Source: Leptotrichia sp. oral taxon 847
Lineage (GTDB): Bacteria > Fusobacteriota > Fusobacteriia > Fusobacteriales > Leptotrichiaceae
NCBI RefSeq assembly: GCF_001553645.1
Contig: NZ_CP014231.1
Span: 1,054,001-1,118,000, forward strand
Length of the DNA: 64,000 nt
Direction of reading: 5' to 3'
Positions 28,382 through 64,000 of the stretch are shown one piece after another. The translations under genes were made by a program, and so were the position numbers. Within the stretch, counting starts at the first letter, position 1; each line of letters begins with the position of its first letter. The notes beneath the pieces were generated by a model. The model saw nothing but the letters and a program-made list of their open reading frames with translations, searched no databases and had not been told where the DNA came from.

Positions 28382-28667
28382 TTATCTCAAAAAATCTTTT
28401 TGAATTTTTTTCAAATTTCTATCTATATCTTTTCTTTTCAAAGTTTCCCTTTTATCGTGAAGTTTTTTCCCTTTTGCAAGTGCAATTTCCACCTTTACTA
28501 ACCTTTTTTTTGTATAAACTGAAAGTGGTACAATTGTGTAACCTTGTTCTTTAATCTTGGATTCCCATTTATTGATTTCTCTTCGACTCAAAAGTAATTT
28601 TCTCACTCTTGACTCTGGCACATTGTTAATATTTCCAAATTCGTAAGGTGTTATGTGCATATTCATT
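28382..28667 (-). CDS. smpB: SmpB, 3' exon (split by an IStron)
   Basis: SmpB binds tmRNA and is essential for rescue of stalled ribosomes by trans-translation. This segment encodes the C-terminal two thirds of the family: [63 protein letters not shown] and a basic tail. The first ATG in frame (28666) would give only 94 aa without the conserved N-terminal tmRNA-binding strands. Those are found 1.9 kb upstream at 30578-30738. Joining 30578 to 28667 restores one open frame of 148 aa reading NEVFI-MNMHI across the junction. No ribosome binding site needed for separate initiation is convincing. Confidence 0.92.
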
Positions 28668-28760
28668 CTGAACCTCCCATTTCTTACGTCATGGGGTTCT
28701 AAAATCTTTAAAAATATTCAAAAATTTTCTAAGAAGTTTGATAGCTTTACACTACCCTTA
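28668..28760 (-). ncRNA. Predicted omega-RNA scaffold and right-end hairpin of the IStron
   Basis: The segment from the end of tnpB to the element boundary contains a nested hairpin: outer arms AACC/GGTT around CCAT/ATGG, at 28670-28701. By analogy with studied TnpB systems, the omega-RNA would end here and take its guide from the flanking DNA, i.e. the smpB 3' exon beginning AATGAATATGC. The 5' end of the RNA is not visible from sequence. Confidence 0.5.
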
Positions 28761-29994
28761 TTCTTTTAGGCGTGTTCAGCTCACCTCTATTGTATAGGAC
28801 GCTTAAGTCCACAACTTTACTTTTTCTTAATATGTTTAATGCTCCATTACAATCTGCATTTATGAGTTTACCTTTTTTTGTTTGATATAGTCCTCTTTTT
28901 ATCCTTTTTCCACTGAATACATATTCTTGTAGATTTTCTTTATCATATATTGGAATTTCATCTCCATCAAAGAAACTTGCTTTTGATGTATAACTTTCTT
29001 CTTGTAGTTTAAATTCTATTCCATATAGTTTACATAGATATATTAATTTATCTCTTAATTTTCTATATGGTATATTTACAAAATTTTGATTATTTATACT
29101 TCCTATATTTGAATTTCTTTGAAAGTCCTCATTATATCCTAGAACTAGTTTTCCTATATCATTATTAAGACAATAATTTATTATTATTCTTGCTGCTTTT
29201 GAAAGATAATCTTCTATGCGATTATTTCGCCTTCTAGCTATTCTCTTTTGCCTTAATGTTGTGCATTCAGTCTTTTGTTTATCTTTTATACTTTGTAATT
29301 TTGCATTTATCTTATTATAGTATTGATTAATAGATTTTAATTTTCTACCGTCTATTAGGAATGAAGCTCCAGCATTAGTTACACAAGTACAAAGATTATC
29401 TATACCTAAATCTATTCCTAGTCCATTTTCTTTATTTAATTCCCTTTGAACTTCTTCTACTTCATAAGTATATTGAATTTCAAAGTACCTAGAATGTTGT
29501 TTAGGTATTATTCTAATCTCCTTTATCTTCTTGTCTTTTAATATTGGCGGTAGTTTTATTGCGATTTCCTCATGTGTCTTTCTAAATGAATTTGAATAAG
29601 GAACTATCAGAATATCATCTTTTAATCTAACAAATCCTATAACAAGAGTTGTAAAACCATCCTTAGCAAGATATTTAGGTAATTTTATTTTTTTAATATC
29701 ATATTGACCATTTTTAGCAAGTTTTAAAAGTCCAAAAAATGATTTAAAACTTCCGTCTGCTTCTTTTAGAATTTGTTGAGCCATATTAGAATTTAACTTC
29801 TTATAGTTCTCACTATTTTTAAGCATTTTATAGTTTTCATTATAACTTAAATACTTTTTCTTATTAAAATAGTATTGTCTAACATTATATATAGCTTCAT
29901 TAGTTAAGTTCTTGGCTATATGAGATAAATATTTTAAATTTCTAAACTCCTTTTTACTAAGATGTTTTACCTGTTGTTTTAATGTTAAATACAT
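28747..29994 (-). CDS. tnpB: TnpB, RNA-guided nuclease of IS200/IS605/IStron type
   Basis: TnpB proteins use an omega-RNA from the element's right end to cut DNA next to a target-adjacent motif. This 415-aa protein has the N-terminal helical part and a RuvC-like nuclease with the three acidic residues D195 (GLGIDLGIDN), E289 (LVLGYNED) and D381 (NADCNGALN). The family motif ESYTSKASFFDGDEIP at about 333-348 sits where many TnpBs carry a CxxC zinc ribbon. The expected cysteines are absent, so this belongs to a zinc-ribbon-less branch or has lost it. The ATG at 29994 has a strong GGAGGTGA site. It lies within the 3' peripheral part of the group I intron. Confidence 0.92.
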   Translation of the reverse strand: MYLTLKQQVKHLSKKEFRNLKYLSHIAKNLTNEAIYNVRQYYFNKKKYLSYNENYKMLKNSENYKKLNSNMAQQILKEADGSFKSFFGLLKLAKNGQYDIKKIKLPKYLAKDGFTTLVIGFVRLKDDILIVPYSNSFRKTHEEIAIKLPPILKDKKIKEIRIIPKQHSRYFEIQYTYEVEEVQRELNKENGLGIDLGIDNLCTCVTNAGASFLIDGRKLKSINQYYNKINAKLQSIKDKQKTECTTLRQKRIARRRNNRIEDYLSKAARIIINYCLNNDIGKLVLGYNEDFQRNSNIGSINNQNFVNIPYRKLRDKLIYLCKLYGIEFKLQEESYTSKASFFDGDEIPIYDKENLQEYVFSGKRIKRGLYQTKKGKLINADCNGALNILRKSKVVDLSVLYNRGELNTPKRIRVV

Positions 29995-30022
29995 ATATAA
30001 TCACCTCCTTTTCATCAGAGAT

Positions 30023-30028
30023 ATTATA
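30023..30028 (-). promoter_or_regulatory. Possible tnpB -10 element
   Basis: A TATAAT hexamer lies about 29 bp upstream of the tnpB ATG. No good -35 is present at 16-18 bp, so independent transcription is uncertain. Confidence 0.3.
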
Positions 30029-30100
30029 CTATATATTCTACATTTTAACTATCAAAAAGTAATATTTTTTATTTATTTTTAAATATTTTTAAAGTTTTTA

Positions 30101-30118
30101 AAACCCCACAACAGTGGG
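30101..30118 (-). terminator. Terminator-like hairpin between intron core and tnpB
   Basis: In the RNA, CCCAC-UGUU-GUGGG is followed by GUUUUAAAA. It sits directly after the intron core and about 110 nt before the tnpB start. The stem is short but GC-rich in an AT-rich context. It could attenuate transcription into tnpB, or be a structural peripheral stem of the intron. Confidence 0.4.
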
Positions 30119-30577
30119 AAGCGTCGTTCACATAAGTGCGCTACTACTTATGCAGTTCTCTTATGAACTTCTTGTTATCTCTAACAAGCACAGACTATAT
30201 CTTATCCATATCCTATTTCAAGGACTTAGGCGAAACCACTTCCAATACCAATCGCTTGTATTGTACTCCCCTCACGAGGGATAGTCGTTGAACTTTCCTT
30301 TTCAGGCTTAGCTGCTGATTGTCTATTATCATAATACTTAGGTTTTAACCTTATACCATCTAGTATATTTTTTCTGATTTCTCCACTATCACACTTGTAC
30401 CATATTTTAACGAAGATACTATGTTGTAGTTATACTAGCTTTAAGAGTTCCCAGCAATTCAGTTTCTTTGTTGCACAGTTCTTTCTGTGTCTACATACAA
30501 GTTTCCCTATATGCTTACTAAAATTCTCAAACAATTCATCTCACGACTAAAAGTCGCGAGTGTTCTTGCATTATTTA
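30105..30577 (-). ncRNA. Group I intron catalytic core of the IStron
   Basis: The coding-strand RNA contains the four conserved group I elements in order. P (AAUUGCUGGGAAC) is at 30459-30447, Q (AAUCAGCAGCUAAGCCUG) at 30320-30303, R (GUUCAACGACUA) at 30294-30283 and S (AAGAUAUAGUC) at 30203-30193. P4 forms between UUGCUG of P and CAGCAG of Q. P7 forms between GACUA of R and UAGUC of S, which are exact complements. A GUAAG at 30518-30514 can act as internal guide, pairing with UUUAU at the 5' exon end with the required G-U at the splice site. A hairpin CUUGUUA-GAGA-UAACAAG just after S fits P9. Splicing would ligate the smpB exons; the activity itself is inference. Confidence 0.92.
30540..30560. 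repeat. Left-end palindrome of the IStron
   Basis: The arms CTCACGACT and AGTCGCGAG (one mismatch, 3-nt loop) form the subterminal hairpin expected at the left end of IS200/IS605-family elements. It lies 17 nt inside the boundary. The flanking words CAATTCATCTC and TTCTTGC recur at the miniature element near 44.5 kb. Confidence 0.75.
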
Positions 30578-30738
30578 ATAAAAACTTCATTTCTTATAAT
30601 TCTTACGAAACTCTCTTTTATACTTATCTTACCAGCTTTTACAGATTTTACTTCTGTTCCCACAAGCTCGATTCCAGCCTCCAATTTTTCCTCTATAAAA
30701 TAGTCATGATACGCTTTTTTATTTTTTGCTAAAATCAT
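30578..30738 (-). CDS. smpB: SmpB, 5' exon (split by an IStron)
   Basis: This exon encodes 53 codons plus two bases of Smp[40 protein letters not shown] and [15 protein letters not shown]. These are the conserved N-terminal strands and the tmRNA-contacting HDYFIEE-GTEVKS blocks. A GGGGGAAG ribosome binding site precedes the ATG at 30738. Without splicing, translation would run two codons into the element and stop at TAA 30573-30571, giving a 55-aa fragment. With splicing, the frame continues at 28667. The gene follows rnr and the small lipoprotein gene on the same strand; rnr-smpB linkage is common in bacteria. Confidence 0.92.
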
Positions 30739-44171: not shown

Positions 44172-44312
44172 TTTACCTCCATTTTCATTTTTATAATATC
44201 ATTTCTAATCTTTTATTTGTATATTCAATTCATACTCTCTTATTCTAACATATTTTTCACTTTTTTATTAGTCTTTTTTCGCAAGAGGGTAAACTTTTTT
44301 GTAAATAAAAAA

Positions 44313-44346
44313 ACTGCTTCATAGAATTATCTTTATGAGACAGTCT
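44313..44346. terminator. Bidirectional terminator downstream of the M50 protease gene
   Basis: The arms ACTGCTTCATA and TATGAGACAGT (a near-perfect stem) are flanked by T-runs on both strands. It would stop minus-strand transcripts coming from the M50 gene and the miniature element before der. The 426-bp gap between der and the M50 gene holds this and the miniature element, with no coding gene. Confidence 0.8.
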
Positions 44347-44363
44347 TTTTTCTTCCACATCCA

Positions 44364-44560
44364 GTGAACTACTCCCACTTGTAGAATTGGGAGCTTCTTG
44401 GGAAGTATCTGCGTATGACTAGCCAAATATATTTACCAAGCTCTTCGGGTAGTTCCTACCCTGATATATTTTTAGTGTAATACATTTTGCTATAAATGTC
44501 AATCAAACATGCAATTCATCTCCCACTTATAAAAAGCCTACGACTTCTTGCTATCTTTTT
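44364..44560 (-). mobile_element. Miniature IS200/IS605-type element without ORF
   Basis: About 200 bp with no coding capacity. Its left end (near 44545-44560) has GCAAGAA followed downstream by GAGATGAATTG, the same words as the IStron left end. The right end has a hairpin (CTCCCA/TGGGAG, 44372-44393) and finishes AGTAGTTCAC, a typical right-end tail. Inside is a promoter and a second hairpin (GGGTAG/CTACCC, 44447-44461) nested in AAATATAT/ATATATTT arms. It is best read as an internally deleted element that a TnpA in trans could move. The left boundary is approximate. Confidence 0.65.
44474..44502 (-). promoter_or_regulatory. Consensus promoter inside the miniature element
   Basis: TTGACA and TACACT lie exactly 17 bp apart. 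It would transcribe about 100 nt of structured RNA toward the right end of the element and into the flank, up to the terminator at 44313-44346. Confidence 0.65.
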
Positions 44561-44597
44561 GTTAAAAATCTAAAACTTTTCTATTTCAAAAAATACA

Positions 44598-45387: not shown

Positions 45388-45464
45388 TGGCGTCCCCGGT
45401 TGGACTTGAACCAACGGCCCTCTGATTAACAGTCAGATGCTCTAACCAGCTGAGCTACGGAGAC
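45388..45464 (-). tRNA. tRNA-Asn (GTT)
   Basis: A full cloverleaf can be drawn: acceptor GTCTCCG with CGGGGAC, D arm GCTC...GAGC, anticodon stem TCTGA/TCAGA with loop CTGTTAA (anticodon GTT), T arm GTTGG-TTCAAGT-CCAAC. The 3' CCA is encoded. It is the last gene of the rRNA operon, 15 bp after 5S. Confidence 0.97.
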
Positions 45465-45479
45465 GCAGAAAAGAAAAAG

Positions 45480-45594
45480 TTTGGCGATTACCTATTTTTC
45501 CTAGTGAACACTAAGTATCGTAGGCGTAAACAGACTTAACTTCCGGGTTCGAAATGTAGACCGGGTGTATCCCTGTTGCAATAGTCACCAAACA
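45480..45594 (-). rRNA. 5S ribosomal RNA (copy 1)
   Basis: About 115 nt beginning TTTGGTGACTATTG and ending AATCGCCAAA, with the internal CCCGAACCCGGAAGTTAAG-type block seen as TTCGAACCCGGAAGTTAAG. The termini pair as expected. It follows 23S by about 65 nt. Confidence 0.95.
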
Positions 45595-45658
45595 GAATAT
45601 AAAGGGTATTGAAAAAAGGCAATGAGAAATAAATAGTAGGCTAAGTAAAAGACAAAAA

Positions 45659-48554
<2,896 letters not shown>

Positions 48555-48668
48555 TTTTATTAACAGAATAAACTATTTTGTTGTAATCTTTTACCTACTA
48601 TTCATTTCCCATTGTCCTTTAAAAGAAAAACTGTAAAGAAGAAGAAAGTGTAGAAACAAACTCCTTAG

Positions 48669-50180
<1,512 letters not shown>

Positions 50181-60115: not shown

Positions 60116-60192
60116 TGGCGTCCCCGGTTGGACTTGAACCAACGGCCCTCTGATTAACAGTCAGATGCTCTAACCAGCTGAGCTACGGAGAC
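60116..60192 (-). tRNA. tRNA-Asn (GTT), second copy
   Basis: Identical to the tRNA at 45388-45464, including the encoded CCA, at a constant offset of 14,728 bp. It ends the second rRNA operon. Confidence 0.97.
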
Positions 60193-60207
60193 GCAGAAAA
60201 GAAAAAG

Positions 60208-60322
60208 TTTGGCGATTACCTATTTTTCCTAGTGAACACTAAGTATCGTAGGCGTAAACAGACTTAACTTCCGGGTTCGAAATGTAGACCGGGTGTATCC
60301 CTGTTGCAATAGTCACCAAACA
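60208..60322 (-). rRNA. 5S ribosomal RNA (copy 2)
   Basis: Identical to copy 1 at an offset of 14,728 bp. Confidence 0.95.
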
Positions 60323-60386
60323 GAATATAAAGGGTATTGAAAAAAGGCAATGAGAAATAAATAGTAGGCTAAGTAAAAGACAAAAA

Positions 60387-63282
<2,896 letters not shown>

Positions 63283-63396
63283 TTTTATTAACAGAATAAA
63301 CTATTTTGTTGTAATCTTTTACCTACTATTCATTTCCCATTGTCCTTTAAAAGAAAAACTGTAAAGAAGAAGAAAGTGTAGAAACAAACTCCTTAG

Positions 63397-64000
<604 letters not shown>

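Follow-up and report, generated by a model that had tools for sequence, protein, structure and literature searches.

The 64,000-nt window of the Leptotrichia sp. oral taxon 847 genome analysed here (contig NZ_CP014231.1, positions 1,054,001 to 1,118,000) contains a short minus-strand segment without a protein gene, the left end of which resembles that of an IStron at smpB within the same window. This raises the questions of what kind of element the segment is, which proteins could move it and what it carries between its ends.

A short member of the IS200/IS605 group

On the minus strand the mini-element follows TTTTTAAC without a gap; its first bases are AAAAAGATAGCAAGAAG and its last are GGGAGTAGTTCAC. 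Its coordinates (Table 1) are exact, since the base at 44560 comes immediately after TTTAAC and ...GTAGTTCAC finishes at 44364. Comparison with its own genome (2.19 Mb, one contig) returned 12 matching pieces, and the genome carries a tnpA+tnpB element with the same left and right ends, two tnpB-only elements and two further minis. The original prediction, that this is an IS200/IS605-type element and that the host carries a family of them, is borne out by these further copies and matched ends and by the presence of the tnpA-bearing autonomous relative. The genome has intact TnpB and TnpA genes.

Table 1 Coordinates of the mini-element, its parts and related elements (positions of the window unless a genome position is given)
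Feature	Position	Strand	Remarks
Whole mini-element	44364..44560	minus	197 bp, no protein gene
TTTAAC, target or transposon-adjacent motif (TAM)	44561..44566	minus	flanks the element on its 5′ side
Left end, AAAAAGATA-GCAAGAAG-(degenerate hairpin)-GGGAGATGAATTGC	44511..44560	minus	92-94% identity to left ends of tnpB-only elements
-35 hexamer TTGACA	44497..44502	minus	
-10 hexamer TACACT	44474..44479	minus	17-nt spacer; ends 10 nt before scaffold
TnpB omega-RNA (reRNA) scaffold, CAGGG to TTCAC	44364..44463	minus	100 nt; 88-92% identity to 3′ ends of tnpB elements, just after the tnpB stop; covarying structure
Right-end hairpin, also the last scaffold stem	44371..44394	minus	From fold and alignments
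Presumed in-situ guide (TGGATGTGGAAGAAAAAAGA)	44344..44363	minus	Host DNA just outside the element; placed by analogy with IS605 reRNAs (PMC8612924, PMC10278001)
Imperfect hairpin then T-run, possible transcript terminator	44306..44344	minus	Seen in sequence; not called by a scan
smpB IStron, other IS605 lineage	28668..30577	minus	415-aa TnpB at 28747-29994; target TTTAT at 30578-30582
tnpA+tnpB element, same ends as the mini-element	G000:C1:1569077-1570828		TnpA 132 aa, Y1_Tnp (PF01797); TnpB 365 aa, OrfB_IS605, Cas12f1-like_TNB and HTH domains
tnpB-only elements, own genome	1384583-1385985 and 1965381-1966788		Matched by the mini-element
Further minis, own genome	945584 and 315536		Matched by the mini-element
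Mini-IStron copies	G000:C1:875208-875520 (L026/L216), L217-L220, L224, L225, L231		
Seven Y1 transposase genes	G000:C1:226569, 662620, 938861, 970848, 978312, 1282112, 2083612		

Matches to the mini-element occur in nine of the 13 genomes of the genus. A survey of these genomes, sampled by search matches with at most ~40 candidates scored per genome and hence giving lower bounds, identified at least 137 distinct scaffold loci, comprising at least 86 tnpB-only elements, at least 17 tnpA+tnpB elements, at least 28 minis in five species, four tnpB fragments and two orphans. The minis that were measured are 179-197 bp long. TTTAAC lies directly 5′ of every mini and precedes nearly all aligned tnpB elements. 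For a mini located downstream of pgk in two species, the window genome retains a contiguous element-free site (89% over 244 bases) in which one base at the junction is ambiguous or different; together with TTTAAC this site indicates insertion 3′ of a short fixed motif without target duplication, that one base being ambiguous. No empty site was found for the window copy, its orthologous intergenic region being too diverged.

Judged by its ends, which match those of the autonomous tnpA element, the mini-element is a non-autonomous member of IS200/IS605. It is not a palindrome-associated transposable element (PATE) in the strict sense, as beyond the palindromic ends it carries a stretch of ~60 nt of guide-RNA scaffold along with a site resembling a promoter. 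At two other loci of the genome (L016, G000:C1:1517771; L017, G000:C1:2111525) some 45 bp following TTTAAC join the foot of a left end to a single right-end hairpin without scaffold, and these are probably remnants of recombination between two element ends.

Relationship to the smpB IStron

Both left ends share GCAAGAA followed by GAGATGAATTG, as originally described, with GCAAGAA at 44545-44551 of the mini-element and GAGATGAATTG at 44512-44522 and, in the IStron, at 30532-30542. A hairpin zone had been placed between the two blocks; the blocks hold, but the hairpin of the window copy is weaker than was implied (z = 0.08 for the single-strand DNA fold). A clean left-end stem, CTCC...GGGAG or GTAG...CTAC, is present in other copies. 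Because its hairpin is weak and appears decayed, the window copy may no longer be mobile and may now be fixed in place. The pattern GCAAGAAG-N12-30-GAGATGAATTG gave 106 matches in eight of the 13 genus genomes and none when read backwards, so the shared layout is not a product of chance.

It had further been suggested that the same or a related Y1 transposase moves both elements, and of these alternatives only the related enzyme is retained. BLASTP gave no significant match between the 415-aa TnpB of the IStron, present in six copies, and the 365-aa TnpB, although OrfB_IS605 is common to both. The targets also differ, TTTAAC for the mini-element versus TTTAT for the IStron, and a tnpA+tnpB element at 756690 combines an IStron-like left end with a TTTAT target. 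The candidate TnpAs of the two lineages in this genome are 39% identical to each other. A single transposase serving both was ruled out as unlikely on these differences in TnpB, TnpA and target. Judged by TnpB lineage and target motif, neither of which is shared, the mini-element does not belong to the smpB IStron lineage, and since TnpBs, targets and TnpAs all differ the most likely origin of the common left-end layout is a shared IS605 ancestry, each lineage having a transposase of its own.

Group I intron motifs (aagatatagtc) can be recognised by eye in the smpB IStron (window 28600-30700), where an Rfam search returned no family at E <= 1 and left the intron uncalled. Apart from both IS605 lineages, the genome contains seven Y1 transposase genes, all with a 158-codon open frame and the same score for the family.

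A complete guide-RNA scaffold

The main feature of the mini-element, absent from the original prediction, is that it keeps the whole TnpB guide-RNA scaffold together with a promoter ahead of it. The 100 nt at its 3′ end correspond to what lies beyond the tnpB stop codon in full elements (CAGGGTAGGAACTACCC...GTAGTTCAC). The right end of IS605 elements marks the 3′ end of the guide-RNA scaffold, the guide itself being flanking DNA (PMC8612924; PMC10278001). By this correspondence the last 100 nt are a complete TnpB omega-RNA scaffold, which TnpB would bind and use for cleavage. The Rfam search of the mini-element gave no credible family and the scaffold is therefore not a described Rfam RNA.

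Four covarying helices support the scaffold structure, with 8 of 26 pairs changed on both sides, a level that none of 500 shuffles reached. The alignment includes Cetobacterium relatives (TnpB identity 67% and 61%), added because the scaffold is too conserved within the genus to give more than weak covariation. Across the order, the scaffold covariance model has matches in 40 of 96 genomes, representing 11 of 27 genera; the window copy, itself one of the sequences of model R1, matches that model with E=7.9e-20.

One reading of such an element is a passive MITE or PATE formed by internal deletion, in which the ends are all that TnpA needs, while scaffold and promoter persist as functionless relics. 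The right end overlaps the scaffold, so that deletions tend to keep part of it. Yet the first 62 scaffold positions lie outside the right-end hairpin and are 94.1% conserved in minis versus 95.8% in tnpB elements, the hairpin itself being 93.7% conserved versus 98.6%. As selecting copies by scaffold would bias the sample, we searched with a left-end-only pattern: 3 of 100 left ends outside the own genome were without scaffold, all three of them one-ended remnants. The same pattern yielded no scaffold-less minis with both ends besides the ~45-bp single-hairpin remnants described above. Copies within one mini type are close relatives, and independent evidence is thus counted in types and lineages and not in copies.

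A sigma-70-like promoter at the edge of the scaffold

The window copy has a sigma-70-like site, TTGACA-N17-TACACT (44502-44474). Among 20 distinct mini upstream regions 18 have a promoter score of 9-11 of 12, an N17 spacer and a -10 box ending 8-10 nt before the scaffold. In the control, the same stretch of tnpB-bearing elements, a score of at least 10 of 12 was found in none of 83 and a score of 9 in four. Two minis (L069 and L070) have lost the promoter through deletion. Since consensus promoters are easily found in AT-rich DNA (four in a scan of 500 bp against an expected 2.5), the case for this promoter rests on its position and on the tnpB control. A transcript from it would start at or just before CAGGG.

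Between type A, to which the window copy belongs, and types B and C the spacers are 47-50% identical, which compares with 50% for shuffled sequence, the hexamers 71-83% and the scaffolds 84-87%. This placement of a promoter 8-10 nt before the scaffold in types with spacers no more alike than shuffled sequence speaks against a mere deletion product. Parental elements do carry a promoter of their own, of equal quality and near the left end (mostly 17-20 nt after GAATTG), from which types B and C could have been derived. Spacer identity to the parental promoter is 41-53% for types B and C but just 18-24% for type A, and on these values B and C may descend from it while A probably does not. A further point on the side of passive deletion is a mini of another family of the order (L373), in which the left end is joined to the scaffold without a promoter; against it stands the similar design found in the unrelated IStron lineage (below). 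We consider passive deletion an unlikely explanation.

We also identified a remnant of a type-A mini (L392, G077:C1:1247922-1249900) which has no left end and keeps the -10 box and scaffold. It lies just behind an apparent SRP RNA gene (ggtgaaccgtgtcagg...gcagcactaagtc).

Possible use of TnpA and TnpB in trans

In our assessment the mini-element is probably a guide-RNA-only IS605 element, a transcription unit of its own that uses TnpA and TnpB in trans. From what can be read directly in the DNA, namely the boundaries, the family membership, the kept scaffold and the position and conservation of the promoter, we infer transcription, loading of TnpB, cleavage and movement by the TnpA of the full-size relative. 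TnpA would recognise both ends and move the mini-element to sites 3′ of TTTAAC. The internal promoter would place the transcript start at the 5′ boundary of the 99-100-nt scaffold, and the transcript would cross the right end into host DNA, acquiring a 3′ tail that serves as a guide matching the flank. The reRNA of ISDra2 ends in ~16 nt of flank, the donor joint with the TAM being the target (PMC8612924). TnpB supplied by full-size relatives would load this RNA in trans and cut copies of the locus free of the element (TTTAAC plus flank), upon which repair would recopy the element or the empty allele would be lost. Retention of full elements through TnpB cleavage of the empty site has been proposed (PMC8612924) and gene drive on plasmids has been reported in a preprint (PMC11870625). 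TnpB processes omega-RNA, with processed species of 79-466 nt and a scaffold of 106 nt for AmaTnpB, and it normally excises its guide from the mRNA that encodes it, a portion of this mRNA being inhibitory to cleavage in vitro (PMC10278001). A promoter placed at the scaffold would bypass both the processing from tnpB mRNA and the inhibition by part of that mRNA. When the own genome was searched for second targets of the window guide, the best match was the element's own flank, other matches having three mismatches and no proper TTTAAC.

The same promoter and scaffold-conservation data would also fit a guide-RNA decoy that binds TnpB and mainly diverts it from full-size elements, or that shields the host, in the role of a competitor and not of a homing device. 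Minis do occur in the same genomes as tnpB elements that depend on this protein; however, with guides derived from the flank and the scaffold intact the complex should be active, and there is no sign of inactivating changes in the scaffold, which makes a decoy quite improbable. That a host gene has recruited the element as a mobile promoter or a regulatory small RNA can hardly be sustained; der (44171-42846), downstream on the same strand, would be one such gene. The outward promoter is indeed on the der strand, and most insertion sites have no long frame running across them, placing insertions mostly between genes. The flanks nevertheless differ from site to site, a hairpin with T-run separates the element from der, and the same promoter-scaffold unit recurs at ~26 different sites.

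Similar designs in other lineages

A mini-element of ~313 bp belongs to the IStron lineage, with eight copies at 90-95% identity in five genomes. It comprises the IStron left end, a -10 box, the final ~36 codons of tnpB and the right end, without the group I intron. The -10 box is kept in seven of the eight copies and lost by deletion in the other. Frame-breaking indels occur in the tnpB remnant of three copies, so this remnant is not kept as protein. One copy (L225, G009:C1:1938668-1939108) is situated directly behind an M50 protease gene, the intergenic region that the window mini-element occupies.

In another family of the order (f2), to which L373 also belongs, genome G035 has two minis consisting of a left end, a longer centre and a scaffold. 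Scaffolds without tnpB in G035 (L362/L397 and L398) and G026 (L371) have a common upstream module (gttttgt...acaaaac...gcattgataaacaaaatg) with a promoter-like TTGATA-N17-TAT site; in L371 the module is present without a left end.

Going beyond the window copy, we tentatively propose, as a possibility that falls somewhat short of being probable, that guide-RNA-only homing parasites arose at least twice, in the lineages of the 365-aa TnpB and of the IStron, and perhaps again in a second family. These would be mobile promoter and omega-RNA genes that exploit parental TnpA and TnpB, skip tnpB-mRNA processing and its possible inhibition, and spread as protein-free RNA-guided gene drives.

Relation to known elements

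PATEs of IS200/IS605 resemble the mini-element in being short, lacking a protein gene, having IS605 ends and being thought to move in trans (PMC7290912). A PATE-like element of Halanaerobium hydrogeniformans has kept 28 nt of the left end together with the terminal 58 nt of tnpB and a right end of 160 nt (PMC7290912). The Halanaerobium PATE was described as ends-only and in one copy (PMC7290912), whereas the Leptotrichia minis have many copies in several species and a conserved full scaffold with a promoter at its start. ISDra2 (PMC8612924) and AmaTnpB (PMC10278001) share with the mini-element the right-end scaffold, the flank-derived guide and the TAM on the left (here TTTAAC), and the length of the mini scaffold is within the published range. 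In those systems, however, the RNA is excised from the element's own tnpB mRNA, while the RNA of the mini-element, which has no tnpB, would be transcribed directly. Group A IStrons (CdISt1, FnISt and LbISt1 of Leptotrichia buccalis; PMC4227781) have IS605-type ends, a group I intron and TnpB, as does the smpB element; in contrast the mini-element lacks an intron and belongs to a different TnpB lineage. ORF-less IStron variants such as BcISt1 are known (PMC4227781), from which the mini-IStrons described here differ in lacking the intron and keeping the tnpB 3′ end.

The literature thus already contains TnpB guide RNAs, PATEs consisting of ends only (PMC7290912) and IStron variants without ORFs (PMC4227781). 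What appears to be new is a repeated, promoter-bearing, guide-RNA-only TnpB mini-element, which was not found in the open-access literature searched; as the search covered open papers this novelty is provisional.

Guide RNA is also encoded apart from its nuclease in IscB-associated stand-alone omega-RNAs and ORF-less HEARO elements, the nuclease being IscB there and TnpB here. Cas12 probably descends from TnpB, a nuclease whose gene and guide RNA normally go together. If our interpretation is correct, an element made of transposon ends, promoter and scaffold would uncouple the guide from the nuclease, as CRISPR arrays likewise did, and would be among the smallest RNA-guided selfish elements. 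With the mini-element it becomes directly testable whether TnpB works in trans with foreign guides inside its native host, and whether an element without TnpB gains enough from TnpB-based retention for this to be selected.

Elsewhere in the window we noted two rRNA operons on the same strand within 15 kb (45391-50179 and 60119-64000), each followed in the same arrangement by a 5S rRNA and a tRNA.
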